In this document: positions 7,864-42,956 of the stretch, piece after piece
How positions within the stretch are numbered: the stretch's first letter is position 1
How the letters are laid out: each line of letters starts with the position of its first letter
Assembly (NCBI GenBank): GCA_021414085.1
Contig: JAIOPC010000007.1
Coordinates: 124,001-188,000 of the forward strand
DNA: 64,000 nt
Origin: Actinomycetes bacterium
Lineage (GTDB): Bacteria > Actinomycetota > Acidimicrobiia > Acidimicrobiales > Ilumatobacteraceae
Reading direction: 5' to 3'
Position numbers and translations under genes: made by a program
Notes under the pieces: generated by a model
Told to the model about the DNA's origin: nothing
Database searches by the model: none
The model's input: the letters and a program-made list of their open reading frames with translations, nothing else

Positions 7864-10534
<2,671 letters not shown>

Positions 10535-15628: not shown

Positions 15629-16327
15629 ATGAGCTTCTGGCCAACCAAAGAACACTGGAGTGTGGATCTCCCCGTCCGCACCAATCACTACATCGCGCCG
15701 TCGCTGGAGCAGGACGGTTTCGTACTTCTGACACCATTTGAGGGCGAAATTCCGCCCGAAGAGTGGGAAAGCCTCGAATACTTCGATTGGAAGAGCGGTG
15801 GCGACACCAACTTCGCACCGCTGGCCTCCGCCGACGGCGAACTGGAATGCCGTGGTTTCTGGGACAAAGGCAAGCCAGACAAAGACGCCATCTGGACGGT
15901 CAACGCCGACAAAGCGCCGACGCTGAAGAAGTACGTCGAGAGCATCGGCGCCAACTTCGGGCGAGTGCGCATCATCAAGCTCCAGCCGGCAACACACGAA
16001 GAAGCCATGAAGAGCTTCCACCGCGACGACAACAATCGCCTCAATCCCGAGGGCAGCGGCTGGGTGTTGCGCACGTGGATCGAGCTCACCGACGACTCCG
16101 ACAGCTACATGCTGCTCATGGACATCGACGAGAACCGGTTGCCGATCGCCAGCACCGAGCGTCGAGTACCACTGCCGAAGAACTCGCGCTTTGTCGTCGA
16201 CACCCAGCGCCTGTGGCATGTCGTCGTCCATCGCGGCAACAAGCCGCGCTATGCGCTGATCACCTGCGTTGAATCCACCCCGCACCTTGAGGAGTGGATC
16301 CAGAGCCAGGTGCCCGCCTTCGTCTGA
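15629..16327 (+). CDS. hypothetical protein, possible 2OG-Fe(II)-type oxygenase fold
   Basis: A 232-residue soluble protein. The middle and C-terminal parts suggest a double-stranded beta-helix of the aspartyl/asparaginyl hydroxylase kind: FHRDDNNRLNPEGSGWVLRTWIEL supplies a His-x-Asp-like pair, and LWHVVVHRGNKPRYALITCV a distal His and an Arg that could bind 2-oxoglutarate. This is a weak fold impression, not a firm family match. The ATG at 15629 starts MSFWPTKEHW. No operon partner is evident; the EF-hand gene follows 35 bases downstream. Confidence 0.5.
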   Translation: MSFWPTKEHWSVDLPVRTNHYIAPSLEQDGFVLLTPFEGEIPPEEWESLEYFDWKSGGDTNFAPLASADGELECRGFWDKGKPDKDAIWTVNADKAPTLKKYVESIGANFGRVRIIKLQPATHEEAMKSFHRDDNNRLNPEGSGWVLRTWIELTDDSDSYMLLMDIDENRLPIASTERRVPLPKNSRFVVDTQRLWHVVVHRGNKPRYALITCVESTPHLEEWIQSQVPAFV

Positions 16328-16362
16328 GGTTTCACGACGAATGTCTTGGGCATACTGGCCAT

Positions 16363-16599
16363 ATGACAGACCAACCGAAAGACCCACAGCAAGACCAGCC
16401 CAACGCTCAGTCGGCGCACGACGTCGAGCTTGATGCCTACGACCTCGACGGCGACGGCAAGATCTCAATGGTTGAGTCTGAACGCGCGCGCCTCGGACTG
16501 GTTGACGCAAGGCTTGAGGAGATCGCCGAGGAAGGCGGCATCAAAGGCAAGTTGGCCGATGCTGCTCACCACGTGATCGACAAGCTCGACAACGACTGA
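16363..16599 (+). CDS. small EF-hand protein
   Basis: A 78-residue acidic protein with one clear EF-hand calcium loop, DLDGDGKISMVE, at about residues 28-39. The remainder is a short polar N-terminus and a C-terminal helix (GKLADAAHHVIDKLDND). No signal peptide is visible. It could act as a small Ca2+ sensor or buffer, perhaps as a dimer to pair its single hand. The ATG at 16363 begins a Gln/Pro-rich N-terminus. Confidence 0.7.
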   Translation: MTDQPKDPQQDQPNAQSAHDVELDAYDLDGDGKISMVESERARLGLVDARLEEIAEEGGIKGKLADAAHHVIDKLDND

Positions 16600-16669
16600 G
16601 GGCACGATTGACCACAACGATGGTCGAAAGGCCCTAGGTCTGTCTAGGTGATCGCCATACCGTGAGCCC

Positions 16670-19600
16670 ATGGCCACTGCTCACACGCACGCTGATGTTC
16701 GAGTGCGCTCCGTTGTCGATGGCAACGAGGCCGCCGCGCGGATCGCCCACCTCGCATCCGAGGTCATCGCTATCTATCCGATCACCCCGGCTTCGCCGAT
16801 GGGCGAGCTCGCCGACGATCTGAGCTCGAAGGGGCACGCCAACCTCTGGGGTGCCGTGCCCCAAGTGATCGAAATGCAGAGCGAGGCTGGCGCCGCGGGA
16901 ACGCTGCATGGAGCGATCACGCGCGGTGCGCTCGGCACTACCTTCACCTCCAGCCAGGGCCTGCTGCTGATGTTGCCGAACATGTTCAAGATCGCTGGCG
17001 AACTCACGCCCACCGTCATTCACGTCGCAGCGAGAACCGTCGCCACCCACGCGCTCAGCATCTTCGGCGACCACAGCGATGTGATGGCGGCGCGCACGAC
17101 CGGATTCGCGATGTTGTGCGCGAGCAACGTGCAGGAGGCAGCCGACTTTGCCGCCGTTGCACATGCAACAACGCTCGACACGCGCATTCCCTTCCTGCAC
17201 TTCTTCGACGGCTTTCGCACGAGTCACGAGGTCGCCACGATTGAGGCACCCACCGAACAGGACTTAGCGGCACTGATCGACCCGGCAGCGATTGCCGCTC
17301 ACCGCGCGCGGGGCCTCGACCCGGACCAACCCGTGCTGCGCGGCAGCGCGCAGAACCCCGACGTGTTCTTCCAGGCGCGCGAAGCCTGCAACTCCTTCCA
17401 CGCGAACGTTCCCGATGCCGTCCAGTCGACAATGGATCGTCTTGCCACGCTTACCTCGCGGCAGTATCACCTCGTCGACTACTACGGCGCCCCCGACGCC
17501 GACCGCGTCATTGTGCTGATGGGCTCAGGCGCCGGTGCCGCTCGGGAGACGGTCGCGGAACTCGCAACAACCGGCGAACGCGTCGGCGTAGCTGTCGTGC
17601 GCCTGTTCCGCCCGTTCCCCACCGAAGCGTTGCTGGCGGCGTTGCCGCCAAGCACGCAAACCGTCATCGTGCTTGATCGGACCAAAGAGCCGGGCGCACC
17701 CTTCGAGCCACTGCATCTCGACGTGCTGAGCGCGCTGTGGCACAGCCCGACTGAGTCGTGGGCAGATGGCCGCACCCCGCGCGTGATCGGCGGTCGCTAC
17801 GGGCTGAGCAGCAAGGAATTCACGCCGGCAATGGTGAAGGCCGTCTTCGACGAAGGCGCCAAACCCCAACCACGCAATGGCTTCACCGTCGGAATCATCG
17901 ACGACGTGACGCACAACAGCCTGACGTACGACCCGACATTCACGACCGATCACGCTCGCGTGCGCGCCGTCTTCTTCGGCCTTGGCGCGGATGGCACGGT
18001 TGGAGCGAACAAGAACACCACCAAGATTGTCGGCGGCAACACGGATCTCGCGGTGCAGGCATACTTCGTGTACGACTCGAAGAAGTCGGGCTCGATGACA
18101 GTGAGCCACCTTCGTTTCGACCCGAACCCGATCACCAGTACCTACCTGATTGATCGAGCGACCTTCGTGGGCGTGCACCAGTGGGACTTCCTTGAGCGCA
18201 TGGACGTCCTCAAGGTGGCGGCGCCGGGCGCAACCGTGTTGATCAATAGCCCGTTTCCCGCAAACGAGATTTGGGATCGCCTGACGATCGAAGTGCAGCA
18301 AGCGATCATCGAGCGCAATCTGCAACTGCACACGATCGATGCTGGTGCAGTCGCTAAAGCAGCGGGTCTACAGGGCCGGGTCAACACCGTGATGCAGACG
18401 TGCTTCTTCGCACTTTCCAACGTGCTGCCCACCGAGCAAGCCATCGCCGAGCTCAAGCATGCAATCACAACGTCCTACGGAAAGCGCGGCGATGTCGTCG
18501 TGCAGCGCAACATCGCGGCGGTCGACACCACACTGGCGCAACTGTTCCCCGTGCCGGTCGGCGACACGGTCACCGCAACCAAGCATCGACGTCCGACTTT
18601 GAACGGGGACGCCACCGATTTCGTGCAGCGCGTGACCGCCCGAATGCTTGCGGGTGAGGGCGACCTACTGCCGGTGAGCGCACTCCCACCCGATGGAACA
18701 TTCCCAACAGGAACATCGCGGTTTGAGAAGCGCACGATCGCAACTGAGATTCCGATCTGGGAAGCAGACCTGTGCATCGATTGCGGCAAGTGCGCGATTG
18801 TCTGCCCACATGCCGCGATCCGCATGAAGGTGTACGACCCTGCTCAATTGGCGGTCGGCGGCGCCGACGTGTTGAAGACCAAGTCATTTCGCAGCCGCGA
18901 AGTTCCCGGTATGTCACTGACCGTGCAGGTAGCACCCGACGATTGCACCGGCTGCGGCCTTTGTGTGACGGCATGTCCCGCGCACGACAAGAGCGAGGTC
19001 AAACGCAAGAGCATCAACCTGCAGCCGATCGGAGAACACCTTGAGGTCGAACGCGTTGCATGGGACGCATTCCGTAACCTCAACGAAGCGAACCAAGAGC
19101 TGTGGGATCCCGCATCGGTAAAGACGAGCCAGTTGCGTGAACCGCTGTTCGAATTCAGCGGTGCTTGCCTCGGGTGCGGAGAAACCCCGTACCTCAAACT
19201 GCTCACACAACTCTTCGGCGACCACCTGTTGATCGCCAACGCGACCGGCTGCAGCAGCATCTATGGCGGCAACCTGCCCACGACCCCGTACTGCACGAAC
19301 GACGACGGCCGTGGCCCGGCGTGGAGCAACAGTCTGTTCGAGGACAACGCCGAGTTCGGACTGGGAATCAGGCTTGGCGTCGATGCTCAGCAACAGGGCG
19401 CTCTCGGGTTACTCGCGCAACTCTCTGGCGGCAGCCGACCATCGATCGACCCCGCCCTCGCAGCGGCGATCGTTGAGAGTGTTCACGACAGTGGCGACAT
19501 TCCGATTCGCGAACAACGCGAGCGGGTCGAGCTGTTGCGAGCCGCGCTGAAAGGCATCGACGACCCAGCAGCGAAGCAGCTGCTCGATCTATCCGGCACG

Positions 19601-20308
19601 CTTGTGCGCAAGACCGTATGGATCGTCGGCGGTGATGGCTGGGCATACGACATCGGTGCCGGCGGGCTGGACCACATACTCGGTAGCGGACGCAACGTGA
19701 ACATCCTGGTGCTCGACACCGAGGTCTACTCCAACACCGGTGGTCAAGCATCGAAGGCAACGCCGCGCGGCGCAGTCGCCAAGTTCGCTTCCGCCGGCAA
19801 GGGCATCGCCAAGAAGGACCTCGGACTGGAAGCGATGTCGTTCGGCGATGTCTACGTCGCGCAGGTTGCACTCGGTGCCAGCGACATACAAACGGTGAAG
19901 GCAATGCTCGAGGCCGAGGCGTGGCCGGGAGTGTCGCTCGTTATCGCCTACAGCACGTGCATCGCTCACGGATTCGATATGCGGCAATCGATGACACAAC
20001 AGAAAGTGGCCGTGCACAGCGGACACTGGCCGCTGTACCGCTACCGCCCTGGCGAGGACGAGGCGACCAAGCCGTTCCAGTTGGACAGCGCCGCACCATC
20101 GGTTCCCTACGCGGACTTTGCAGGCAGCGAAGCAAGGTTCGCGATGTTGCAGCGCAGCAGTCCCGAACGCGCTGGGGAACTGATCGAACTCGCGCAGGCG
20201 GATGTGGCCGCACGATGGCGCTACTACGAGCAACTCGCCGGCGTCGAGCGGACCGCGCCCAGCCACATCGGCGCCGCGACCGTCGCAGAAACGGATGACG
20301 AGCCATGA
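16670..20308 (+). CDS. nifJ: pyruvate:ferredoxin (flavodoxin) oxidoreductase
   Basis: A full-length 1212-residue single-chain PFOR. It converts pyruvate and CoA to acetyl-CoA and CO2, passing electrons to ferredoxin or flavodoxin. Domain order is canonical: N-terminal catalytic domain with YPITPASPMGE at about 36-46, domain II, the gamma-type domain (FFGLGADGTVGANKN), a two-cluster ferredoxin domain with CIDCGKCAIVCP and CTGCGLCVTACP, then the TPP domain (CLGCGETPY, ATGCSSIYGGNLPTTPY, GGDGWAYDIG, VYSNTGGQ). It overlaps the next gene by 4 bases (ATGA). PFOR is oxygen-sensitive in many organisms. It heads a cluster with a glycyl radical enzyme, which argues for anaerobic or microoxic metabolism. 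Confidence 0.96.
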   Translation: MATAHTHADVRVRSVVDGNEAAARIAHLASEVIAIYPITPASPMGELADDLSSKGHANLWGAVPQVIEMQSEAGAAGTLHGAITRGALGTTFTSSQGLLLMLPNMFKIAGELTPTVIHVAARTVATHALSIFGDHSDVMAARTTGFAMLCASNVQEAADFAAVAHATTLDTRIPFLHFFDGFRTSHEVATIEAPTEQDLAALIDPAAIAAHRARGLDPDQPVLRGSAQNPDVFFQAREACNSFHANVPDAVQSTMDRLATLTSRQYHLVDYYGAPDADRVIVLMGSGAGAARETVAELATTGERVGVAVVRLFRPFPTEALLAALPPSTQTVIVLDRTKEPGAPFEPLHLDVLSALWHSPTESWADGRTPRVIGGRYGLSSKEFTPAMVKAVFDEGAKPQPRNGFTVGIIDDVTHNSLTYDPTFTTDHARVRAVFFGLGADGTVGANKNTTKIVGGNTDLAVQAYFVYDSKKSGSMTVSHLRFDPNPITSTYLIDRATFVGVHQWDFLERMDVLKVAAPGATVLINSPFPANEIWDRLTIEVQQAIIERNLQLHTIDAGAVAKAAGLQGRVNTVMQTCFFALSNVLPTEQAIAELKHAITTSYGKRGDVVVQRNIAAVDTTLAQLFPVPVGDTVTATKHRRPTLNGDATDFVQRVTARMLAGEGDLLPVSALPPDGTFPTGTSRFEKRTIATEIPIWEADLCIDCGKCAIVCPHAAIRMKVYDPAQLAVGGADVLKTKSFRSREVPGMSLTVQVAPDDCTGCGLCVTACPAHDKSEVKRKSINLQPIGEHLEVERVAWDAFRNLNEANQELWDPASVKTSQLREPLFEFSGACLGCGETPYLKLLTQLFGDHLLIANATGCSSIYGGNLPTTPYCTNDDGRGPAWSNSLFEDNAEFGLGIRLGVDAQQQGALGLLAQLSGGSRPSIDPALAAAIVESVHDSGDIPIREQRERVELLRAALKGIDDPAAKQLLDLSGTLVRKTVWIVGGDGWAYDIGAGGLDHILGSGRNVNILVLDTEVYSNTGGQASKATPRGAVAKFASAGKGIAKKDLGLEAMSFGDVYVAQVALGASDIQTVKAMLEAEAWPGVSLVIAYSTCIAHGFDMRQSMTQQKVAVHSGHWPLYRYRPGEDEATKPFQLDSAAPSVPYADFAGSEARFAMLQRSSPERAGELIELAQADVAARWRYYEQLAGVERTAPSHIGAATVAETDDEP

Positions 20309-21333
20309 CCCACAACGGCACGACCCTCGACACGACAAGCCCCGACATGTCGACGAAGTACCTCGGGTTGCAACTTCGTAGCCCGATTGTGGCGTCAGCC
20401 AGTCCACTCACTGGTGACTCCGATCAGTGGGAACGCATCGAGCAAGCGGGCGCTGGTGCGCTGGTTCTGCCGTCACTGTTCGAAGAGCAAATCGAGCACG
20501 ACGCCTTCGCACTCGACAGCACTCTCAACTTTGGCACCGACGCCTTCAGCGAGTCGCTCAGCTACTTCCCGGAGATGGAGAACTACGACACCGGGCCGGC
20601 ACGGCACCTTGCGTTGGTCGAACTCGCTCGCCAGCGACTGACGATCCCTGTCATCGCCAGCCTCAACGGAACATCGCCCGGCGGATGGGTGAAGTACGCG
20701 GGCTACTTGCAAGACGCGGGCGCACAGGCCATCGAGCTCAACATCTACGACGTGATCGTCGATCCGCATCGCAGCTCAGCCGACGTGGAACGCGCGTACG
20801 TGGAACTGGTCGAGGAAGTGCGTGCAGAAGTGAAGGTCCCGCTCGCCGTCAAGCTCGGACCTTGGTTCAGCTCGCTCGGCCACTTCGCGCTCGCGCTCGA
20901 AGCCGCCGGCGCCGACGGCCTCGTGCTCTTCAACCGCCTGTATCAACCCGACATCGATCTCGACACTCTGGACGTGAAGCCGCGCTTGCAGTTATCGACC
21001 TCGGCCGAGGCGCGCCTTCCGCTGCACTGGATCGGCATCCTGCGTGGCTTCACGAAGTGCTCGCTCGCCGGCACCACGGGAGTACACGATGGGGCCGACG
21101 CGCTGAAGTTGCTGCTTGCAGGCGCAGATGTCGCCATGACGACGAGCGCACTGCTACGCCACGGCCCCGGCCACATCGAGACAATGCTGAGCTGGATACG
21201 CACGTGGATGACGGAGCGCGAGTACGACAGCATCGAACAGCTGAAGGGCAGCGTCTCGCAGCGAAACGTTCCCGACCCACAGGTGTACGAGCGGGCGAAC
21301 TACTACCAAGTCCTCCAAAGTTGGAGGCACTGA
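20305..21333 (+). CDS. dihydroorotate dehydrogenase-like protein
   Basis: A 342-residue FMN-type TIM barrel of the dihydroorotate dehydrogenase-like group, distinct from true PyrD. Seen: YLGLQLRSPIVASASPLT at the N-terminus, IPVIASLNGTSPGGWVKYAGYLQDAGA, AIELNIYDV, PLAVKLGPWFSSLGHFALALEAAGADGLVLFNR, then TTGVHDGADALKLLLAGADVAMTTSALLRHGP for phosphate binding. Genes of this group often sit beside nifJ in other bacteria, as here with a 4-base overlap, so a shared redox role with PFOR is likely. The true substrate is not known to me. Confidence 0.85.
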   Translation: MTHNGTTLDTTSPDMSTKYLGLQLRSPIVASASPLTGDSDQWERIEQAGAGALVLPSLFEEQIEHDAFALDSTLNFGTDAFSESLSYFPEMENYDTGPARHLALVELARQRLTIPVIASLNGTSPGGWVKYAGYLQDAGAQAIELNIYDVIVDPHRSSADVERAYVELVEEVRAEVKVPLAVKLGPWFSSLGHFALALEAAGADGLVLFNRLYQPDIDLDTLDVKPRLQLSTSAEARLPLHWIGILRGFTKCSLAGTTGVHDGADALKLLLAGADVAMTTSALLRHGPGHIETMLSWIRTWMTEREYDSIEQLKGSVSQRNVPDPQVYERANYYQVLQSWRH

Positions 21334-21359
21334 AACTCATGCACGGAGGAGATCACCAC

Positions 21360-21728
21360 GTGAAGAAGGACGATCGCATTGATGTCGCACAGCTGGTGGG
21401 GACAGCGCGCGACATGTTGACAGTCAAAAGGGTCTTCGGTGAGCCGATCCATCACAACGACGTACGGGTGATTCCGGTGGCCAGAGTTCGCGGCGGTGGG
21501 GGCGGTGGGGGCGGCAGCGGCAGCGCTCCCGACGGCGACGGCAGCGGAGGCGGCGGTGGCTTCGGCATGATGGCGAGCCCGGCGGGTGTTTACGTGATCA
21601 AGGGCGACCACGTGACGTGGCATCCGGCGAGGGACCCAGGGCGAACCGAGCTGGCTGGCCTCACCCTTGCCGCTCTTGCGGTATTGGCAATTCGCTCGAT
21701 CGTTGTGAGGACGTTTGGTCACCGCTAG
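21360..21728 (+). CDS. GerW/YtfJ-like protein
   Basis: A 122-residue protein. MLTVKRVFGEPI, then VRVIPVARVRGGGG..GGGSG, then GGGGFGMMASPAGVYVIKGD, resemble the GerW (YtfJ) family known from Bacillus spore germination but present in many non-spore-formers. A hydrophobic helix near the C-terminus (LAGLTLAALAVLAIRSIVV) probably anchors it in the membrane. The glycine tract is encoded at about 21496-21570. The GTG start at 21360 is chosen for GGAGGA at 21345-21350, 9 bases ahead; an in-frame ATG at 21339 lacks such a site. It lies between nifJ and glycyl-radical genes. Confidence 0.7.
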   Translation: MKKDDRIDVAQLVGTARDMLTVKRVFGEPIHHNDVRVIPVARVRGGGGGGGGSGSAPDGDGSGGGGGFGMMASPAGVYVIKGDHVTWHPARDPGRTELAGLTLAALAVLAIRSIVVRTFGHR

Positions 21729-21792
21729 ATCGATGGCGAGAAAGCGACCTTTGGCCCTACCCAGTCTCTACGGCCAGCCATACGGTCCAGGC

Positions 21793-23346
21793 ATGGAAAT
21801 GAACGAGTTTCAAGAACGCGCGCGAATGCTCGTGCAGGACAGAAACCTCGGCTACGACCAGCGACTGCGTCGCCTCGCCGTGCTGGCGACGGAAGTCTTG
21901 CCCTACCCGGCGATTTCGGAAGCGTGCCGCGAAGCACTCGACAAGCGCGTGATCTGCGACATGTACGAGGGGCACGCCCCGTACACCGCCCGCTACATCC
22001 TGCCCGACTACGAGAAGGCAATTCGCCAGGGTCTGAGTTTCCTCGAACTGCCGCCGCCCACCGATCTGGACGACGCCCTCGCGTTCCTGCAAATCATGTA
22101 CGCCCACGTGCCGAGCGTGACCACTTATCCGGTGTACCTCGGCGATCTCGACAAAGTGCTCGGTCCATTCGTCGACGCGGCAACCTCCGACGAGGAACTT
22201 GATCGCAAACTCCGCCGATTCTGGATCGGAATTGATCGCATGATCCCGGACGCATTCGCCCATCTCGATATCGGCCCGAACGACAGCAGGATCGCGCGGT
22301 CGATCCTGCGCGTCGAACGCTCGCTGCGCCAATCCGTGCCCAACATCACGTTGAAGGTCGACCCGGTGCTGACGCCCGACGATCTGATTGAAGATGCGGT
22401 GCGCACAGTCTTTGAGACCGGCAAGCCACACTTCGTCAACCATCCCATGATGGTGGCCGATCACGGCGAGGGCTACGCGGCCGTCAGTTGTTACAACTCG
22501 CTCAAGATCGGCGGCGGGGCACACACGTTGGCGCGACTCAACCTGAAGGAAGTTGCGCTGCGACACACCGGCAGCGCCGACGAGTTCCTCGCCACCACCT
22601 TGCCAACGTTCGTCGAGCTGACGGCCGAACTCATCGAGGCGCGTATTCGATCGCTCGTCGAACAACAGGGGTTCTTCGAAACGCATTGGCTCGCTGCCGA
22701 GGGCGTGATCGACATCGATCGCTTCTCGGCGATGTTCGGAATCTTCGGCCTCGCCGAGTGCGTCAACCTGCTGATGTCCTACGAGGGCCACGATGAAACC
22801 GCTCGCTACGGACACGACGCCACAGCCGACGCGCTCAGTCGACGAATCATTGAACGCGTCGCGGAGCTGGTAGCCGCCAGGCCAATGCCTTACTGCAACG
22901 GTGGAGCCGGGCGCTGCTACCTGCACTCGCAGAGCGGCATCGATCTCGACAAGGGTGTCACCGCCGGCACCCGCATTCCGGTTGGCGACGAGCCAGCGAT
23001 GCTTGAGCACATCATGACGTGTGCCCCGCACCACCGTCACTTTGCTTCCGGCGTCAGCGACATCTTTCATGTCGACGAAACTGCCCTGCGTAATCCACAA
23101 GCGATCGTCGACATCATTCGTGGCGCATTCACCAGTGGCATGCGCGACTTCACCTTCAACCTCGACAGCAACGAGTTCGTGCGCATCACTGGCTACTTGG
23201 TACGCAAGAGCGACCTTGCCGCGGTCGCCGAGCACACCGGCGTTCGGCACGGAAGTGACTACCTCGCGGCTGGGTCAGAAGACGAATTCCACCTCACGCA
23301 GCGTGCGGTGAAACGCATTGGCTGCAACGAGCGTGAGCCACGGTGA
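21793..23346 (+). CDS. yjjI: YjjI-family glycyl radical enzyme
   Basis: A 517-residue protein, very close to the 516 of E. coli YjjI. The C-terminal radical motif is RITGY with the radical Gly at residue 467 (codon 23191-23193), matching the RVxGY pattern of glycyl radical enzymes. A likely thiyl Cys is Cys233 in AAVSCYNSLKIGGGAHTL (codon 22489-22491). Also seen: HPMMVADHGEGYAAVS, YCNGGAGRCYLHSQ, IDLDKGVTAGTRIPVGDEP. The radical is oxygen-labile, so the enzyme should work only without oxygen. The reaction of YjjI is not established to my knowledge. The YjjW activase follows with a 4-base overlap. The ATG at 21793 gives the family length; an earlier ATG at 21733 is possible. Confidence 0.88.
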   Translation: MEMNEFQERARMLVQDRNLGYDQRLRRLAVLATEVLPYPAISEACREALDKRVICDMYEGHAPYTARYILPDYEKAIRQGLSFLELPPPTDLDDALAFLQIMYAHVPSVTTYPVYLGDLDKVLGPFVDAATSDEELDRKLRRFWIGIDRMIPDAFAHLDIGPNDSRIARSILRVERSLRQSVPNITLKVDPVLTPDDLIEDAVRTVFETGKPHFVNHPMMVADHGEGYAAVSCYNSLKIGGGAHTLARLNLKEVALRHTGSADEFLATTLPTFVELTAELIEARIRSLVEQQGFFETHWLAAEGVIDIDRFSAMFGIFGLAECVNLLMSYEGHDETARYGHDATADALSRRIIERVAELVAARPMPYCNGGAGRCYLHSQSGIDLDKGVTAGTRIPVGDEPAMLEHIMTCAPHHRHFASGVSDIFHVDETALRNPQAIVDIIRGAFTSGMRDFTFNLDSNEFVRITGYLVRKSDLAAVAEHTGVRHGSDYLAAGSEDEFHLTQRAVKRIGCNEREPR

Positions 23347-24206
23347 AAGGTGGCACGGTGAAGGGCCTCGTCACCAATACCATCACGTTCAGCACTGTCG
23401 ACGGCCCGGGCAACCGCTTCGTCGTGTTCCTGCAGGGTTGCAACTTCAACTGCGTTGCGTGCCACAACCCGTACACGATCAACGTGTGCAACGACTGTGG
23501 GGAGTGCGTCGACACGTGTCCATCCGGCGCGCTCACCCTCGACGCAATCGGGGCCGTGCAATGGAACGAGTCGGCCTGCACGGGTGGCGACACGTGCATC
23601 AGCGTCTGCCCGTACGACTCGACTCCGAAGGCGCGCTACGCCGAGGTGGCCGACCTAGTGGCCAAAATCCGACGCGCGGCACCGTTCCTGAGCGGCATCA
23701 CGGTTTCCGGTGGCGAAGCCACGCAGCAAACCGAGTTCGTTCACGCGCTCTTCTCAGCTGTGAAAGCCGACCAGGAATTGTGTTTGCTCACGTGCTTCGT
23801 CGACTCCAACGGCGCCGCCGCGCCGGACACGTGGCTTGCGCTCTCAGACACCATGGACGGCGCAATGATCGACCTCAAGTGCCTCGATCCTGAGATCCAT
23901 CGCACGATGACCGGGCAGCCCAACGACATGGTGCTGGCGAGTATCCATCAACTGCACGCAATGGGATTGCTCTATGAGGTCAGGCTGCTGCTCTTGGCGG
24001 GCATCAACGACGACCCTGCACTGCTGCGGAGCACTGCTGCTTGGCTCGCCGACATCGATCCAGAAATGCGGGTGAAAGTGATCGGCTTCCGCAACCACGG
24101 CGTCAGGCCACACGACCCGCCGCTGATCGAGCCATCGCCGGATTCACTGCACAGCGCAGCGGAATTGCTCTTCGAGTTCGCCCAGTTCGACGTCTGCGTG
24201 ATCTGA
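23343..24206 (+). CDS. yjjW: YjjW-family glycyl radical enzyme activase (radical SAM)
   Basis: A 287-residue radical SAM activase. It should abstract hydrogen from Gly467 of the upstream enzyme. The SAM cluster motif is GCNFNCVACHNP (Cx3Cx2C) at about 37-48. A ferredoxin-like insert follows, with CNDCGECVDTCP and CTGGDTCISVCP, the two extra clusters typical of activases of this class. The SAM-binding GGE appears in ITVSGGEATQQ. The GTG start overlaps the yjjI stop (GTGA at 23343-23346). A second GTG at 23358 would shorten it by five residues. Confidence 0.9.
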   Translation: MKGGTVKGLVTNTITFSTVDGPGNRFVVFLQGCNFNCVACHNPYTINVCNDCGECVDTCPSGALTLDAIGAVQWNESACTGGDTCISVCPYDSTPKARYAEVADLVAKIRRAAPFLSGITVSGGEATQQTEFVHALFSAVKADQELCLLTCFVDSNGAAAPDTWLALSDTMDGAMIDLKCLDPEIHRTMTGQPNDMVLASIHQLHAMGLLYEVRLLLLAGINDDPALLRSTAAWLADIDPEMRVKVIGFRNHGVRPHDPPLIEPSPDSLHSAAELLFEFAQFDVCVI

Positions 24207-24215
24207 GCTGTCAAC

Positions 24216-24253
24216 TTCACACGCCGTTCACGAAGTCCACACAAGCACGAAAC
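24216..24253. promoter_or_regulatory. weak GlnR-like phased repeat ahead of winged-helix gene
   Basis: Four pentamers in 11-bp phase: TTCAC at 24216, TTCAC at 24227, CACAC at 24238 and GAAAC at 24249. The spacing is that of actinobacterial GlnR boxes (gTnAc-n6-GaAAc repeated), but only the last unit matches fully. It ends 22 bases before the ATG at 24276. Tentative; it gains some interest from the better box at 27233-27270. Confidence 0.25.
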
Positions 24254-24275
24254 ACTAAGTTCCTAAAGTCGGTTG

Positions 24276-24560
24276 ATGCCCGCTCCCACCGCGCTGACAG
24301 CTCGCGAGCGCGAAGTGCTCAGGACTTTGTTGGCGAACCGCGGCCGAGTGCTTGGTCGCCACGAACTCGCCCGACAGTCGGGGCTCGCTGAACTGCACGA
24401 TCGACGATGCGACAACGTGCTGGTGCAGTTACGCGAGCGCCTGGGTACTGACGCGATCATCACGGTGCGCTCGCGCGGCTGGATGCTGAATCTTCAAGCC
24501 GTCGCGCAGGCGACCGAGCTGCTGATTGCGGGGATGCTGGTTGATGGTGCTAGCGGTTAG
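24276..24560 (+). CDS. stand-alone OmpR-type winged-helix protein
   Basis: A 94-residue protein that is essentially only a Trans_reg_C winged helix: LTAREREVLRTLLANRGRVLGRHELARQSG, then RRCDNVLVQLRERLGTDAIITVRSRGWML. No receiver domain is present. The same domain closes OmpR/PhoB and GlnR-type regulators and some actinobacterial uroporphyrinogen-III synthases. The stop is only two bases before the antiporter GTG, so the two are very probably one transcript. An adjacent in-frame TTG at 24273 is possible; no ribosome site is clear. Likely a DNA-binding regulator of its own operon or of the adjacent nitrogen genes. Confidence 0.75.
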   Translation: MPAPTALTAREREVLRTLLANRGRVLGRHELARQSGLAELHDRRCDNVLVQLRERLGTDAIITVRSRGWMLNLQAVAQATELLIAGMLVDGASG

Positions 24561-24562
24561 CC

Positions 24563-27262
24563 GTGTTGGCAACTAACGACAGCGTCGACCTCGGGCGACT
24601 GCTCCTCGATCTGCTGATCGTTCTTGTCGCGGCGAAGGTTGCGGCCGAGTTGGCAGAACGCCTACGCGTGGCAGCAGTGCTTGGCGAGATCGCTGCCGGC
24701 ATTCTGCTGGGACCTTCTGTGTTCGGCTTGATCGTGACCACGGGCAACCGCGGCGTCTCCATTTCGCTGCTCGCCGAAATCGGAGTGCTGTTGCTGTTGC
24801 TGTCGGTCGGCTTGGAAATGGACCTCGGCGAGCTGTTAAAGGTCGGTCGAGCATCGCTCCTGGTTGCCGTTATTGGTGTGGCCGCGCCATTCGCGGCGGG
24901 TGTTGCGACCGGGCTGGCGTTTGGAGAATCGACCAACACGTCGATCTTCTTCGGCGCGGCGCTTACCGCAACCAGCGTCGGCATTACAGCGCGCGTGTTT
25001 GGTGACCTGCGCGCGCTCGCCTCGATTGAAGCGCGGATCGTGCTCGGTGCCGCCGTTGCTGACGACGTGCTTGGCCTCGTGATTCTGACCGTCGTGGTCA
25101 AGGCGGTCACCGGTGCAAGCATCGGCGTCGGAGTGATCGCTGGCACCCTCGCGCTGGCGCTGGCCTTTCTGGTGGCAACCGGAGTCGTGGGGCTCGTCGT
25201 CGTTCCGCCCGCGCTGCGTGCGATCGATCGCTATGCCAAGTCGAGCGCGACTCTGACGATTGCGGCACTCGCGGTCACGCTCGCCTTCGCGGCGCTGGCC
25301 GACGTCTCCAACCTCGCGTTCATTATCGGCGCGTTCATGGCTGGCTTGGCCATTGGACGCAGCGAACACCGCGAGCGCATCTCGCGCGACCTCGGAAGCG
25401 TTGGCCACGTCTTCATTCCCGTCTTCTTCCTGCAGATCGGCCTCAACGCCGACATCGCCGCGATGGCCAAGCCGTCGGTGCTGGCGTTCGCTGGCGTGAT
25501 GACGTTGGTCGCTATCGGTGGCAAGTTGTTGTCCGCCACCGGTGCGATCGGAACGCGGGCCGACAAGGTGCTCCTCGGCATCGGGATGATTCCGCGTGGG
25601 GAAGTTGGCCTGATCTTCGCGTCCATCGGCCTCGCCAGTGGGGTACTCGACGCAGATCTCTACGGCGCGCTGCTGCTCGTGGTTCTGCTGACCACGATCG
25701 TCACACCGCCGCTGCTACGGCTGCGGCTGGGCGTCACCGCCAAGCGGACGCTGGCGGACCAATCAACACCAACCGCGGAACCTCCGGAAGGGTGGATCAC
25801 GATCGAGAGCGGCGTCATCGAGTTACACGGCAACCCGCCGTTGAGCGCCATCGTCCACCTTGCGCTCACCACGGCGGCGATGGCAACACTGGCAACGCCA
25901 GGTGAGGCGCTGCTGAATTGGTTCAGCGCCCGTCGACACGACGCGCTCACATGGAATCCCGATGAAACTCCTTCCCTGGTCGACCTGCTGCGCGCCGACG
26001 AGGTTCGAGCATGGCGTTTCCTCGATGTCACCGGAGTGCTCGAGCGTGCGCTGCCGGAGGTAGCCGATGCGATGTCGCGCCGTCGCTCCGACATGAGTGA
26101 CCTCGACCCACTTGGTGCGCTGCGCTTCCCCACCGTTGATCGTCTTCACGAGCTTGCGGGCACCCAGGACTTCGCCTTTGAGAGCGACGAACCGCACGAA
26201 GCATTGGTGCTCGCAGCGATGGTGCACGACGTTTCGCGTGGGACCGAAGAGGCGCTCGCGCTCGCTTCGCGGCTATGTCGCGAAGCAGATGCTCGGCTCG
26301 TGGTGTCGTTGATTGCGGACGCCAACCTCCTGCGCGCGGGCGTTCGCGAACCACCGGTCTTCGACAACACTGAAATCTTGCAACTGGCGACTCACCTCGC
26401 TGGCGCCGATCATGCTCGCGACGCATACCTGCTGGCGCTCGCCATCGGTGACCTTCCGAAGCACCATCGCGGTGCGCTTGACCAGCGTTACGACCTCGTG
26501 TGCGAGGCGCTCGATCACCCGGAGCTCACCGGAACCAATGCGACCAACCTGGCCGGCGTTCGCCGGGTGGCAGCACAACGACTGCTGACCGACGCCGCGG
26601 CCATCGATCGTCTACGGCTCGCACCCGCGTCGTACTTGTTGACGCACGAGCCGGAAGAGATTGCGCGCCAGGCGCAGCTCGTTGAGCCACTACCGCGTGG
26701 TGGCGTTGTTCGCGTGGCAGTCAGTTCACAATGTAAAGCCGACTATTGGAAGGTCGACATTGCGTGCCGCGATGCCGACGGGTTACTCGCACGCTTGACC
26801 GATGTGTTGACGACACACGGCTTCGACATCGTGTCGGCCGACATTGCGACGTGGCCGGACGGCGCAGTGCTCGACAGCTTCACCGTTCGCTCCAGCGTGC
26901 CGCCGGACCCGAACGAGCTGGCGACAAGCATGGAAGCCCGACTGCGTAAGCCGCTGCGACCAACTCCGAAGCCACAGCTCGTGCTCACCTTCGACAACGA
27001 GGCGCTGCCGTGGCACACAGCGTGCGTTGTCGATGGACCCGACGAGCCTGGAGTGTTGCAAGCAGTCAGCGCAGCGTTCGCGGCGACCAAGGTCGTGGTG
27101 CACTCCGCGAGAATCGGCTCACTCAACGGTGCGGTGTCGGATCGATTCACCGTCACCGATCGGCTTGGACGCAAGCTCGATCTCGCCGCGATGAATCGGA
27201 CTCGCGCGGTGCTGAAGCGAACGGACAAGACCTTCACTCGCACGAAACACTTGCGCAACTGA
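24563..27262 (+). CDS. CPA2 cation/proton antiporter fused to GlnD C-terminal half (HD-like, ACT, ACT)
   Basis: An 899-residue fusion. Residues about 8-390 form a 12-13 helix CPA2 antiporter with the Asp pair D167-D168 in AAVADDVLGLVIL and IPRGEVGLIFASIGL at 343-357. Residues about 465-870 read as the C-terminal half of the PII uridylyltransferase GlnD: VRAWRFLDVTGVLERALPE (481-499), TVDRLHE, an HD-like LAAMVHDVSRG (550-560), YLLTHEPEEIARQAQ (691-705), ACT1 about 730-778 and ACT2 about 818-872. The nucleotidyltransferase domain of GlnD is absent and HD ligands look partly lost (no His after DVSRG). ACT domains of GlnD sense glutamine, so ligand-gated ion exchange is the inference. GTG start, two bases after the winged-helix gene and 49 bases before amt. 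Confidence 0.85.
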   Translation: MLATNDSVDLGRLLLDLLIVLVAAKVAAELAERLRVAAVLGEIAAGILLGPSVFGLIVTTGNRGVSISLLAEIGVLLLLLSVGLEMDLGELLKVGRASLLVAVIGVAAPFAAGVATGLAFGESTNTSIFFGAALTATSVGITARVFGDLRALASIEARIVLGAAVADDVLGLVILTVVVKAVTGASIGVGVIAGTLALALAFLVATGVVGLVVVPPALRAIDRYAKSSATLTIAALAVTLAFAALADVSNLAFIIGAFMAGLAIGRSEHRERISRDLGSVGHVFIPVFFLQIGLNADIAAMAKPSVLAFAGVMTLVAIGGKLLSATGAIGTRADKVLLGIGMIPRGEVGLIFASIGLASGVLDADLYGALLLVVLLTTIVTPPLLRLRLGVTAKRTLADQSTPTAEPPEGWITIESGVIELHGNPPLSAIVHLALTTAAMATLATPGEALLNWFSARRHDALTWNPDETPSLVDLLRADEVRAWRFLDVTGVLERALPEVADAMSRRRSDMSDLDPLGALRFPTVDRLHELAGTQDFAFESDEPHEALVLAAMVHDVSRGTEEALALASRLCREADARLVVSLIADANLLRAGVREPPVFDNTEILQLATHLAGADHARDAYLLALAIGDLPKHHRGALDQRYDLVCEALDHPELTGTNATNLAGVRRVAAQRLLTDAAAIDRLRLAPASYLLTHEPEEIARQAQLVEPLPRGGVVRVAVSSQCKADYWKVDIACRDADGLLARLTDVLTTHGFDIVSADIATWPDGAVLDSFTVRSSVPPDPNELATSMEARLRKPLRPTPKPQLVLTFDNEALPWHTACVVDGPDEPGVLQAVSAAFAATKVVVHSARIGSLNGAVSDRFTVTDRLGRKLDLAAMNRTRAVLKRTDKTFTRTKHLRN

Positions 27263-27311: not shown

Positions 27312-28754
27312 ATGCGCAACAACAAGGCAGTTAGGTACACACTCGGCGGTGTCGTCGGCGCGACGTTGTCGACACTGTTGGTCACAGGTCAGGCATTCGC
27401 CGCCGACCTCGACCCCGTGGATGCACTTTCGCAGCAGACAAGCTTGCTGTGGGTTGTGCTCGGCGCCGTTCTCGTCATCTTCATGCAAGCTGGCTTCGCG
27501 CTCGTCGAAACGGGGTTCTGCCAGGCGAAGAACGCAGCGCATGTGTTCTCCACCAACTTCGCGATCTTCGGCCTCGGGTTTGTTGGATTCTTTCTCATCG
27601 GCTTTCCGCTCGCGTTCGGCGGGTTCTCATACGCCGCGTTCGGCCTCGATACGCCGATAGGTAAGCCACTTGTCGGCAGCGGCAATTGGGTGTTTCTGTG
27701 GGACGGCGGCTGGGCGATGTCTGGCTCGGGTGTGACACCGGCGTTGCTCGCGTTCTTCCTCTATATGGCGGCATTCATGGACACCACTGCCACCATTCCC
27801 ACCGGGTCGATGGCCGAGCGCTGGAAGTGGAACAGCTTCGTCGGCTGGGGATTGTTCTGTGGAGCGATCTACTACCCAATCTTTGCGGCATGGACCTGGG
27901 GCGGCGGCTGGCTGGCCAAGACCTGGGACACACTCAGCGCCGGCGCCGGTTACGTCGACTTCGCCGGCAGCGGCGTTGTGCACGCAGTTGGCGGCGTCGC
28001 CGCACTCGCCGGTGCGATCGTGCTGGGGCCCCGTATTGGCAAGTACGACGCAGACCGCAAGCCGCGCACGATTGCCGGTCACAACATTCCGATGGCGCAG
28101 CTCGGCACGTTCATCCTGCTGTTCGGTTGGTTCGGATTCAACGCGGCATCGACACTGTCGGTGGCCGATGTGCAGTTCGCGACAGTCGCCACCAACACCG
28201 CGATCGCCGCCGCCTTCGGCGCCGTCATCGGAATGTTCTACGTGCAGAAGCGTCTCGGAAAGCCCGACCCGGGGATGATGGTCAACGGAATGCTCGCCGG
28301 CCTAGTCGCCATCACGGCACCATGTGCATTCACAACGCCAGCATGGTCGGCAGTGATCGGTGGCGTCGCCGCAATCATCGCCATCGAGTCGTGCCTGTTC
28401 TTCGAGCGCAAAGGCATCGACGACCCGGTGGGCGCGATCAGTGTGCACGGCATTGCTGGCACATTCGGTGTGCTGTGTGTGGGCCTTGTTGCCAACGGCA
28501 GCTACGGCGCCGGATGGAATGGCTCGCCGACCGAAGGCGTGAAGGGATTGTTCTACGGCGATGCCGGACAGCTGGGGGCACAGGCGCTTGGCGCGGCCGT
28601 CATCTGGACCGTCATCTTCGGACTCGCATTTGGGTTCTTCAAGCTGCAGAACAAGTTCACCAAGGGCGGCATCCGCCCGGAGGCAGAGATTGAAACCGCA
28701 GGTCTCGACATGCACGAGATGGGTGTGAAGGCGTACGTAGACACTTCGGTGTGA
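27312..28754 (+). CDS. amt: ammonium transporter Amt
   Basis: A 480-residue Amt/MEP ammonium channel. An N-terminal signal-like segment ends near QAFAADLDP, then about 11 membrane helices. Conserved features: MQAGFALVETGFCQAKNA at the start of the core, YVDFAGSGVVHAVGGVAAL with the first pore His, GWFGFNAAST, and ISVHGIAGTFGVL with the second pore His. A good ribosome site AAAGGAG (27301-27307) precedes the ATG. No glnK/glnB follows, although amt-glnK is the usual pair; instead the gene follows the antiporter-GlnD fusion and a GlnR-like box, and is followed by a SulP permease 28 bases away. Confidence 0.95.
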   Translation: MRNNKAVRYTLGGVVGATLSTLLVTGQAFAADLDPVDALSQQTSLLWVVLGAVLVIFMQAGFALVETGFCQAKNAAHVFSTNFAIFGLGFVGFFLIGFPLAFGGFSYAAFGLDTPIGKPLVGSGNWVFLWDGGWAMSGSGVTPALLAFFLYMAAFMDTTATIPTGSMAERWKWNSFVGWGLFCGAIYYPIFAAWTWGGGWLAKTWDTLSAGAGYVDFAGSGVVHAVGGVAALAGAIVLGPRIGKYDADRKPRTIAGHNIPMAQLGTFILLFGWFGFNAASTLSVADVQFATVATNTAIAAAFGAVIGMFYVQKRLGKPDPGMMVNGMLAGLVAITAPCAFTTPAWSAVIGGVAAIIAIESCLFFERKGIDDPVGAISVHGIAGTFGVLCVGLVANGSYGAGWNGSPTEGVKGLFYGDAGQLGAQALGAAVIWTVIFGLAFGFFKLQNKFTKGGIRPEAEIETAGLDMHEMGVKAYVDTSV

Positions 28755-41303: not shown

Positions 41304-41893
41304 GCAGCGACGCAGATCTGCAGGCGGCGTACGAGGCGATCGACGCGGTGAATGCCGCCGATCCGAATGTGCTGGAGTGGCACGGCCAGTCGGTGCCACG
41401 GGCGCTTCTGCAAGGGCAGCGCGCGACGACGTGGCTGCCGCGAGTCGCCGACATGCCATCGAGTGCGCTGTCGATCGCGGCCCGCGCTCATCATCTCGCG
41501 CGCTGGCAAATCGCCCGAGCGAGCTACCCCGACGGACGCGCGGGCTACCTACGGTGGCGCAAGGCCAGCAAGGCGGCATCCGCTGAGTTGCTGGTGACCA
41601 CACTCGCGCCGCTCGGTGTTGCGACCGCTGCACTGAACAGAGCGGTCGATCTCATCCAGCGCGTCGGGCTTGGCGCCGACCCGGAAGCGCAGGCAGTCGA
41701 AGATGTTGCTTGCCTCGTGTTTCTGGAAACCGACTACGTTGCGCTCTTGCAACGACTGGGCGGCGACGCCACTGCGGGCGCGGTACGCAAGACGTTGAAG
41801 AAGATGTCGCCGACAGCCATCGGTCTCGGTGTCGAGGCGACGCCCATTGGTCCGGCGCGCGACTTACTACTGGAGGTGGCTGCGACTAGTTGA
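41300..41893 (+). CDS. DUF4202 domain protein
   Basis: A 197-residue helical protein of the DUF4202 type: AYEAIDAVNAADPNVLEWHG at the N-terminus, SALSIAARAHHLARWQIARASYPDGRAGYLRWRK with a conserved His pair, then VACLVFLETDYVALLQ. The function is unknown. It is the last gene of the siroheme/reductase operon, joined by a GTGA overlap at 41300-41303 (an ATG two codons upstream is also possible). Its place suggests a link to sulfite or nitrite assimilation. It overlaps the convergent desaturase gene by 8 bases. Confidence 0.8.
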   Translation: MSSDADLQAAYEAIDAVNAADPNVLEWHGQSVPRALLQGQRATTWLPRVADMPSSALSIAARAHHLARWQIARASYPDGRAGYLRWRKASKAASAELLVTTLAPLGVATAALNRAVDLIQRVGLGADPEAQAVEDVACLVFLETDYVALLQRLGGDATAGAVRKTLKKMSPTAIGLGVEATPIGPARDLLLEVAATS

Positions 41894-42956
41894 CAGCAGC
41901 GGACGATCGCGCCGACGCGTAAGTCAGCCAGTGCCCAGCCTCGAAGTCGTACAGCTTGCAGGCGCGTGTGATCTTGAGGTAGCCGCGCAGCGACAGCCGC
42001 GACGTACGCACGGTGTTCGGATACGCCGCTTCGATAGCGGCCGATGCGGCGGGCAATTGGTGAAACGGAATGCGCGTGTCGACGTGGTGCGCAACGTGCA
42101 CGAAGATGTTGTGGAACCACAGCCGATTCACAACTGCGGGCAGATGCATCACCGTTGTCGATTCCATTTGGCCCTTGAACTGCGACCACTCCTTGCGCGG
42201 CCACCAACGAATGTCGGGCGCGATGTGGTGCACGTAGACCGCCCAGCCGATGACCTGCACAAAGATCAGGAACGGAATCACCAGCACCTTGATTGGCACC
42301 CAGATCGCAGCCAGCAAGCCGCCGTTGAACGCGCCGAATACGACGGTGCCTGCAATCGCGACGAGCATCACCGACGAGAGTGCGAGCTTGTCGCGCACGA
42401 TGGCACCATGGCGCTTGCCCGGCGCATTGAAGCGCCACATCTTCTCCCACCACACGACGCGCAAGAAGTACGCGCCGGCACCGAAACACGACCACTCAAG
42501 GCGATGCCGAACGCGCGCTAGGAAGCCGTATGCGTTGTATTGCTCGACCGTCGAGGGGTGCCATACAAAGTCGAAATCCTGGCGGGTGGTGTAGCCGTGA
42601 TGAATCCGGTTGTGGCCGAGATCCCACGCTGCCTCAACGTGCGCGCTCGGAGCCATGCATAGTCGAGCTACGAGTCGGTTGATCCGTCGTGACTCGAACA
42701 ACGCACCATGCGATGCATCGTGGCCGAGCACAAACAGTCCCGACACCGCCAACCCGGCGAGCGGCCACAGGATCAGCAACATCCACCAGGTATTGGTCAA
42801 CAGCAGCCCGGCAACCGGAATGGCGTACAAGATGGACGCCTGCACGAGGGCCACAATCGCTTTGGAGGGCGACCGGCGATAGCACGACTCAGGGATTGCG
42901 CCACGGACTTCGTTGAGCGATTCGGTGACCGGGTGAGCGAGGGTGAGGGTGTCCAT
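41886..42956 (-). CDS. fatty acid desaturase
   Basis: A 356-residue membrane desaturase/hydroxylase with the three histidine boxes that bind the di-iron centre: GHDASHGA at about 103-110, HNRIHHGY at about 137-144, and HVAHHVDTRIPFHQL near 295. Four to five membrane helices separate them. It introduces double bonds into acyl chains or modifies a similar lipid, and needs ferredoxin or cytochrome partners not seen here. A TetR-type palindrome lies 19 bases upstream of the ATG, suggesting fatty-acid-responsive repression. Confidence 0.9.
   Translation of the reverse strand: MDTLTLAHPVTESLNEVRGAIPESCYRRSPSKAIVALVQASILYAIPVAGLLLTNTWWMLLILWPLAGLAVSGLFVLGHDASHGALFESRRINRLVARLCMAPSAHVEAAWDLGHNRIHHGYTTRQDFDFVWHPSTVEQYNAYGFLARVRHRLEWSCFGAGAYFLRVVWWEKMWRFNAPGKRHGAIVRDKLALSSVMLVAIAGTVVFGAFNGGLLAAIWVPIKVLVIPFLIFVQVIGWAVYVHHIAPDIRWWPRKEWSQFKGQMESTTVMHLPAVVNRLWFHNIFVHVAHHVDTRIPFHQLPAASAAIEAAYPNTVRTSRLSLRGYLKITRACKLYDFEAGHWLTYASARSSAAVN

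Follow-up and report, generated by a model that had tools for sequence, protein, structure and literature searches.

Two conserved gene pairs, PFOR with a DHOD-like protein and YjjI with YjjW, stand side by side in an Ilumatobacteraceae genome: a local arrangement with a possible electron-supply link

The window analysed here, a 64,000-nucleotide stretch of an Ilumatobacteraceae genome (assembly GCA_021414085.1, contig JAIOPC010000007.1, positions 124,001 to 188,000; genome G000, 3.2 Mb in 18 contigs, 97% complete), carries five genes at 16670-24206 that encode pyruvate:ferredoxin oxidoreductase (PFOR), a dihydroorotate dehydrogenase-like (DHOD-like) protein, a small GerW-domain protein, the glycyl radical enzyme YjjI and, as its activase, YjjW (Table 1). 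A preliminary description had read them as one same-strand module for anoxic life in a genome that also carries furA and katG. All five genes are indeed found on the plus strand, each above a curated Pfam or NCBIfam cut-off, and furA and katG both lie inside the window. The cluster is not, however, a conserved pathway. On balance, and with some reserve, we favour the view that two independent, widely conserved and oxygen-sensitive pairs, PFOR with the DHOD-like protein and YjjI with YjjW, came to lie side by side at the species level, separated by a stray GerW gene, that an electron-supply link runs from one pair to the other, and that YjjI acts on nucleosides or pentoses. All five families are already known; their juxtaposition is new to the present survey but local.

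Table 1. Genes of the window considered here, with positions counted from its first nucleotide
Feature	Position	Strand	Family match or remark
PFOR, single-chain pyruvate:ferredoxin oxidoreductase	16670-20308	+	TIGR02176 1627 bits (cut-off 911)
DHOD-like protein, conserved PFOR partner	20305-21333	+	NF005741 437 bits (cut-off 303)
Small Spore_YtfJ/GerW-domain protein, glycine-rich, 129 residues	21339-21728	+	PF09579 34.4 bits (cut-off 25)
YjjI glycyl radical enzyme, SCYN Cys loop, RITGY glycyl loop	21796-23346 (or from 21736)	+	TIGR04040 664 bits (cut-off 498)
YjjW radical S-adenosylmethionine (SAM) activase with ferredoxin-like insert	23343-24206	+	TIGR04041 312 bits (cut-off 250)
furA	7864-8325		PF01475
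katG	8282-10534		PF00141 peroxidase; name katG assigned by eye
Stand-alone Trans_reg_C winged-helix protein, 95 residues	24273-24560		
CPA2-type cation/proton antiporter with GlnD-like C-terminal half	24563-27262		
Ammonium transporter	27312-28754		
Fatty acid desaturase homologue	41886-42956		

The genes mostly overlap or lie close together, as had been described: the successive gaps are -4, 5, 67 (or 7) and -4 bases, with overlaps of 4 bases between the PFOR and DHOD-like genes and between yjjI and yjjW. The start of YjjI at ATG 21796 was picked by eye from the usual length of the family and from the closest relative, locus L039; ATG 21736 and TTG 21715 are also available. A consensus scan of 16000-24800 returned no promoter-like site and two terminator-like sites on the plus strand, one inside the PFOR gene and one after yjjW (24607), and thus none between any two of the five genes. 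Because of this, and because the totals of promoter-like and terminator-like sites both fall below those of shuffled sequence, a single transcript for the five genes is plausible.

Conservation of the set was judged by scanning the YjjI alignment against one genome from each of 84,980 species, which gave 457 relatives, the best 80 of which were kept. Adjacency at these 80 loci was counted from tblastn matches, gene calling having missed YjjI in 8 of them; 42 loci extend 10 kb upstream of the match, and the remaining loci end at contig ends. Strong matches to PFOR, the DHOD-like protein and GerW near YjjI occur at a single locus, L039, whose YjjI is 88% identical to that of the window, so that among the best 80 of the 457 relatives all five genes stand together in the window and L039 only (DHOD hits at L102 and L104 are weak and on the opposite strand). 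Even at L039 the set is split, since a gene for a 209-residue protein and an opposite-strand fatty acid desaturase gene lie between GerW and YjjI. A homologue of this desaturase, 77% identical, is found in the window 18 kb downstream of the five genes, which suggests, but does not prove, that a local rearrangement underlies the difference between the two loci. Thus, the idea of one five-gene module does not survive a survey of co-occurrence, since the set is not conserved beyond its nearest relative, and we reject a conserved five-gene operon.

The same picture emerges within the genus of the window. YjjI is present in 14 of 15 genomes, the exception (G405) being 63% complete, and PFOR is over the cut-off in 12 of the 15, with fragments in two more. 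In the 12 YjjI-positive genomes of the genus other than G000 and G396, no PFOR match is listed on the contig that carries YjjI; these assemblies are drafts, and in some the distance from YjjI to PFOR is undefined. In G396 the set is probably contiguous, because the PFOR contig (L140) matches L039 at both points tested from base 301 onward; three points tested within its first 300 bases have no match in L039.

What is conserved is each pair by itself. YjjW was matched at 79 of the 80 YjjI loci; the exception, L069, ends directly after YjjI, and at L063 the two genes are 5 kb apart with transporter genes in between. Likewise, the DHOD-like gene follows PFOR at 28 of 30 PFOR loci, window included (the misses are L135 and L148), and was matched at 22 of 30 additional PFOR loci taken from genomes with YjjI, some of them cut by contig ends. 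The GerW gene belongs to neither pair: within the first 30 PFOR loci, some of which are likewise cut by contig ends, it was seen only in the window itself. GerW itself is associated with spore germination. The family occurs in 4 of the 15 genus genomes and in 5 of 61 genomes overall, G000 included; we reject it as a functional partner, and its gene is probably incidental to the cluster. Its earlier label, a GerW-like membrane protein, is to be taken with reserve: the domain is matched modestly by Pfam and by no NCBIfam model, and the membrane part stems from one possible C-terminal helix noticed by eye.

Why the two pairs should meet can be approached from their distribution by genome. Among 120 genomes of relatives, PFOR over the cut-off is present in 18 of 20 with YjjI as opposed to 18 of 100 without it (Fisher 1.1e-9), and in 20 of 20 when PFOR fragments are included; in one of the 20, G494, YjjI is represented by a fragment alone (61 profile positions). 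At the level of genera, all six YjjI-positive genera, that of G494 included, fall within the 19 PFOR-positive genera among 74 (hypergeometric 1.5e-4). YjjI-positive genomes from other groups carry PFOR in 29 of 50 cases, against 77 in a phylum-wide draw of 296 (2e-5), where the 50, taken from the 64 loci first listed, belong partly to other phyla and have no completeness given, the 296 still include YjjI carriers, and the two sets differ in lineage make-up.

Such co-occurrence is expected if reduced ferredoxin from PFOR powers YjjW. In E. coli, PFOR and flavodoxin serve the activation of pyruvate formate-lyase (PFL). In the likely route, pyruvate would be oxidised by PFOR with reduction of ferredoxin, the reduced ferredoxin would in turn reduce the radical-SAM cluster of YjjW, YjjW would install the glycyl radical on YjjI, and a thiyl radical on the Cys loop of YjjI would then act on a nucleoside or a nucleoside-derived pentose, the substrate being suggested by YjjI neighbourhoods in other lineages. 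The data establish the identity of the genes, the two pairings and the association by genome, whereas the electron route, a shared transcript and the substrate are inferences. Nothing in this scheme requires the carbon products of the two enzymes to converge. The undescribed pathway that had been imagined between the two enzymes did not materialise: we found none that joins YjjI to the carbon flow of PFOR, and the neighbours of YjjI elsewhere point to nucleosides.

Several observations weigh against this scheme. The co-occurrence counts take no account of common descent, 14 of the 20 YjjI-positive relatives belong to one genus, and many of the genomes counted are incomplete metagenome-assembled genomes (MAGs). 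Moreover, single-chain PFOR over the cut-off is absent from 21 of the 50 YjjI genomes from elsewhere, and PFOR is thus not obligatory for YjjI; several of these 21 show match patterns that we read as multi-subunit or long fused 2-oxoacid oxidoreductases, and the data fit PFOR as one, not the sole, source of low-potential electrons for YjjW. Within this class PFOR may also have a part in carbon fixation in the presence of oxygen: a report on the Acidimicrobiia strain Salinilacustristhrix flava lists PFOR among its 30 most abundant transcripts and describes carbon fixation under oxic conditions (PMC11697166). PFOR by itself does not demonstrate anoxic life. The claim of a module for anoxic life therefore holds only in part: a genome-level oxygen-sensitive toolkit is plausible, since YjjI-positive genomes are enriched in PFOR and nearly the whole genus carries YjjI, but not in the form of a five-gene module, and PFOR is no proof of anoxia.

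It is possible that the adjacency of the pairs is due to pure chance, without any functional link, and that they share a genome simply because both suit low oxygen. We take this seriously, although as a lesser possibility. The linkage is confined to two sister species, and the desaturase homologue in the window suggests a local rearrangement, both as chance would have it; however, the enrichment of PFOR with YjjI at all three sampling scales speaks against it, and an electron-supply link is reasonable.

A juxtaposition with an electron-supply link leaves the substrate of YjjI to be read from its neighbourhoods in other lineages. In E. coli K-12 the yjjW-yjjI pair and deoCABD are divergent. Three papers place a chromatin immunoprecipitation peak of CRP between yjjI and deoC in an E. 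coli strain (PMC4287617), mark yjjI and yjjW as activated by FNR (PMC2634741), and list both genes in a table from a transcriptome study of Yersinia intermedia growing anaerobically (PMC3792023). In the Coriobacteriia, PF11230 was matched in 40 of 197 genomes, 8 of them over the cut-off, and the six proteins above 600 bits were kept as YjjI (another PF11230 scan found 19 of 396 genomes at E 0.001, 9 of them over the cut-off). Matches below or barely over the cut-off were dropped; that of G066 lies inside an NrdD gene, and those of G012 and G088 lie inside PFL-type genes. Five of the six Coriobacteriia YjjI regions hold a deoC match or a deoB-deoD-Bmp-ABC cluster. The clusters at L180, L220, L221 and L222 comprise genes for a PfkB-type kinase, deoB, deoD, a Bmp/PnrA receptor and ATP-binding cassette (ABC) genes, three of the four with a PF04227 gene that we take to be the pseudouridine glycosidase gene psuG; deoC and an iron alcohol dehydrogenase gene are found at L180 and L222, a Crp-type regulator gene stands immediately upstream of yjjI at L180, and L181 has a deoC match on a contig that stops 1.4 kb past YjjI. 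The sixth region, L223, has none of these genes.

In the Propionibacteriaceae, YjjI lies beside or inside clusters of nucleoside-ABC, cdd and add genes. Bmp/PnrA matches occur at 13 of the 80 YjjI loci; 11 of these belong to Propionibacteriaceae or near relatives, and the other two are L099 and L095, the latter with a weak match (31%, some 5 kb off). At L063 it is the transporter genes that separate yjjI from yjjW. Cytidine and adenosine deaminase genes accompany YjjI at 7 of the 11 Propionibacteriaceae-type loci; one of the seven, L070, was itself the source of the nucleoside queries. Two further loci are of interest for their gene content: the gene after YjjI-YjjW belongs to the same family at L101 and L111 (an FAD-linked, that is flavin adenine dinucleotide-linked, oxidase by Pfam in L111), and at L111, from a SAR324 MAG, a nucleoside-recognition Gate-domain gene comes next, with cyanophycin-synthase-like genes upstream.

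Against a nucleoside role, the same queries detect neither deo nor deaminase nor Bmp genes near YjjI in the genus of the window or in Nanopelagicales, and they are negative at loci from Vibrio (L229), Aeromonas (L230), Proteus (L231) and one member of the Coriobacteriia (L223); neither the queries nor the gene tables reveal any on a Haliovirga plasmid (L227) or a Chloroflexota plasmid (L228). At some query-negative loci the only matches are weak ones to ABC ATPases. The nucleoside link is thus recurrent but far from universal, amounting by our own estimate, once shared descent within each group is allowed for, to about four independent cases. Our proposal is that nucleosides or their pentoses are what YjjI works on; in the genus of the window they are putative substrates. 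NCBIfam still labels TIGR04040 and TIGR04041 as hypothetical equivalogs, and among the papers listed from the PMC open-licence library we found neither a paper on YjjI biochemistry nor a nucleoside reading of YjjI. The recurrence of such neighbourhoods in E. coli, Coriobacteriia and Propionibacteriaceae, in differing arrangements, narrows the question of its function to a handful of candidate substrates open to assay in E. coli K-12.

The YjjI protein itself offers a second line of evidence. It belongs to the YjjI family by the curated cut-off of TIGR04040, and to the glycyl radical enzyme superfamily by its glycyl loop, opposing Cys loop and modelled fold. In an alignment of 70 rows (the window and 69 of the 80 loci), the SCYN Cys loop and the glycyl loop R[IV][ST]G[YF] are present in all 70, and the sole invariant cysteine is C215 (numbering of a 499-residue alignment row), which aligns with the Cys of GCRSFL in E. 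coli NrdD, the class III ribonucleotide reductase. A YjjI homologue outside this alignment, L008 (G378 contig 225), has SAYH in place of SCYN and is possibly inactive or altered. The structure predicted from the 70 sequences (mean predicted local distance difference test score, pLDDT, 90.1) has the glycyl-radical-enzyme fold. Foldseek ranks class III ribonucleotide reductases first to sixth, PflD seventh and a mixture below, and VIA-align gives its best score to NrdD (Z 30.2, root-mean-square deviation (rmsd) 3.2, 452 residues aligned), as against Z 25.9, rmsd 2.8 and 455 residues for PflD. The 15 best VIA-align rows are all NrdD (Z 26.2-30.2), with further NrdD rows at 24.3-25.6. The fold comparison is thus a lean towards NrdD only, because Z depends on chain length, the lower NrdD rows overlap those of other enzymes, and rmsd points the opposite way (2.6-3.1 A for PFL-type structures, 3.1-3.7 A for NrdD). 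A search of PDB sequences with the YjjI profile gave one match, at chance level.

Profile comparison leans the same way: at equal alignment size YjjI appears closer to NrdD than to other glycyl radical enzymes. With 10-row profiles hhalign gives E values of 1.5e-11, 2.5e-12 and 2.6e-12 for NrdD and 2.8e-10 for mixed glycyl radical enzymes; with 5-row profiles the values are 4.6e-13, 8.5e-10 and 1.5e-8 for NrdD, 2.8e-6 for the dehydratase type and 4.3e-4 for PFL. The rows used for comparison were drawn entirely from E. coli and Coriobacteriia, a narrow sampling, and one YjjI row, L158, was left out.

This resemblance raises the possibility of a catabolic, NrdD-like YjjI, a reductase that would turn ribonucleosides or ribose phosphates into their deoxy forms, which DeoC would then cleave. 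The profile, more weakly the fold, and the deo neighbours would suit such an enzyme, but we consider it unlikely. NrdD has a C-terminal Cys4 metal site, and the corresponding CxxC...CxxC pattern is present in 0 of 70 YjjI proteins compared with 10 of 15 NrdD rows; since five of those rows are without it, not every NrdD tested shows the pattern. The motif control is likewise imperfect, as the glycyl motif in the form written was found in 9 of 15 NrdD and 1 of 5 PFL rows. No ATP-cone Pfam family is matched in YjjI, which in a global alignment with the 15 rows begins opposite NrdD residue 110, although some NrdD proteins may also lack the cone, and PFL-type structures superpose on the YjjI model at slightly lower rmsd than NrdD does. 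We reject YjjI as an NrdD on the missing Cys4 pattern and ATP cone, the structure being undecisive. NrdD was not found in the genome of the window or in 20 relatives. A bolder scenario, of lower probability than the favoured view, is that YjjI, an orphan glycyl radical enzyme present in E. coli and many other bacteria, is a minimal, NrdD-leaning radical enzyme for anaerobic nucleoside use, with a nucleoside or its pentose (phosphate) as substrate, wired here to PFOR for the electrons of its activase.

Rather less probable again is a single functional operon of all five genes that serves some undescribed anoxic pathway, with YjjI, the DHOD-like protein and PFOR working on one metabolite stream. 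Their single strand, tight spacing and lack of intervening plus-strand terminator-like sites would be expected of an operon, as would the co-occurrence of YjjI and PFOR by genome; the survey has already weakened this explanation, however, because the set recurs at one of 80 YjjI loci, is interrupted there by two genes, one of them the opposite-strand desaturase, and includes a GerW gene that few genomes of the genus possess. A role in nitrogen assimilation, as proposed in an E. coli co-expression study in which yjjI biclustered with nitrogen-metabolism genes and a predicted NRDD-like domain was noted (PMC3228777), is very improbable even though yjjI of the window has an Amt gene 4 kb downstream of it, since the FNR control cited above (PMC2634741) could alone explain shared anaerobic expression, and no recurrent nitrogen gene was noticed around the 80 loci, most clusters having been read by eye only.

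The genes that follow yjjW merit a brief description. The winged-helix protein, for which no receiver domain was matched, begins 66 bases past yjjW. The C-terminal half of the antiporter resembles the uridylyltransferase GlnD (residues 462-884; TIGR01693 78.6 bits, under the cut-off of the model) and is joined by an ACT domain; its gene stands directly upstream of that for the ammonium transporter, and the protein is possibly a nitrogen-sensing transporter fusion.

The activase of the favoured electron route comes in two forms. YjjW of the window belongs to its family by the TIGR04041 cut-off and carries the radical-SAM motif CxxxCxxC as CNFNCVAC. Of 86 YjjW proteins 78 could be classed, 43 with the ferredoxin-like insert and 35 without it; L118, which has a masked stretch and is among the 43, should not count. 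The YjjI tree requires at least six changes of YjjW form, three of them forced by starred branches. The insert is present in YjjW of the window and of L039 with 7 of the usual 8 cysteines and absent from that of L043, L044, L047-L049, L051 and L052 in the same genus, and L057 retains what by appearance is a remnant of it.

Known systems offer a comparison for both pairs. The PFOR of the window looks like an ordinary one, which matches the solved enzymes 6cin and 1b0p over the full length (more than 1150 bits by phmmer) with no notable difference seen. Its partner departs from its namesake. Dihydroorotate dehydrogenases use a catalytic Cys or Ser base at the SCPN loop. The class 1 enzyme 1ep1, aligned to the DHOD-like protein over residues 113-281, has ELNISCPN, whereas the protein of the window has ELNIYDV, and the catalytic Cys is absent. 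A survey of 62 loci, 10 without a DHOD-like match and 7 with the motif unreadable, gave Tyr or Phe after ELN[ILVM] in all 45 readable sequences, window included. Because the SCPN loop is replaced in this way, the protein is probably a flavoprotein and not a dihydroorotate dehydrogenase; a pyrimidine enzyme is a weak candidate, NF005741 fitting far better than the PreA or PyrD models. We know of no established reaction for this PFOR partner, though the pairing is common.

YjjI, in turn, shares its fold with PFL and the dehydratase-type enzymes (PflB, YbiW, PflD and glycerol dehydratase; Z 23.8-25.9 in the rows shown), but not their active-site loops. PFL has adjacent catalytic cysteines, seen as ACC[VI] in 5 of 5 rows, and glycyl-radical dehydratases have CxE in the Cys loop, seen as GC[VI]E in 5 of 5 rows; in YjjI, SCYN replaces both throughout, with no adjacent cysteine and with Asn two places after the Cys, and we reject assignment to either class. 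NrdD is alike in its glycyl-radical fold, in the alignment of its Cys loop with that of YjjI and in a profile E value of 1e-12, and differs in that YjjI, at about 516 residues, has neither the ATP cone nor the C-terminal cysteine pattern. Also among the closest known systems is the E. coli pair, which has the same families in the same order, YjjI of the window being 46% and YjjW 43% identical to it over the tblastn matches; there the pair faces away from deoCABD, whereas in the window it follows PFOR, the DHOD-like gene and GerW.

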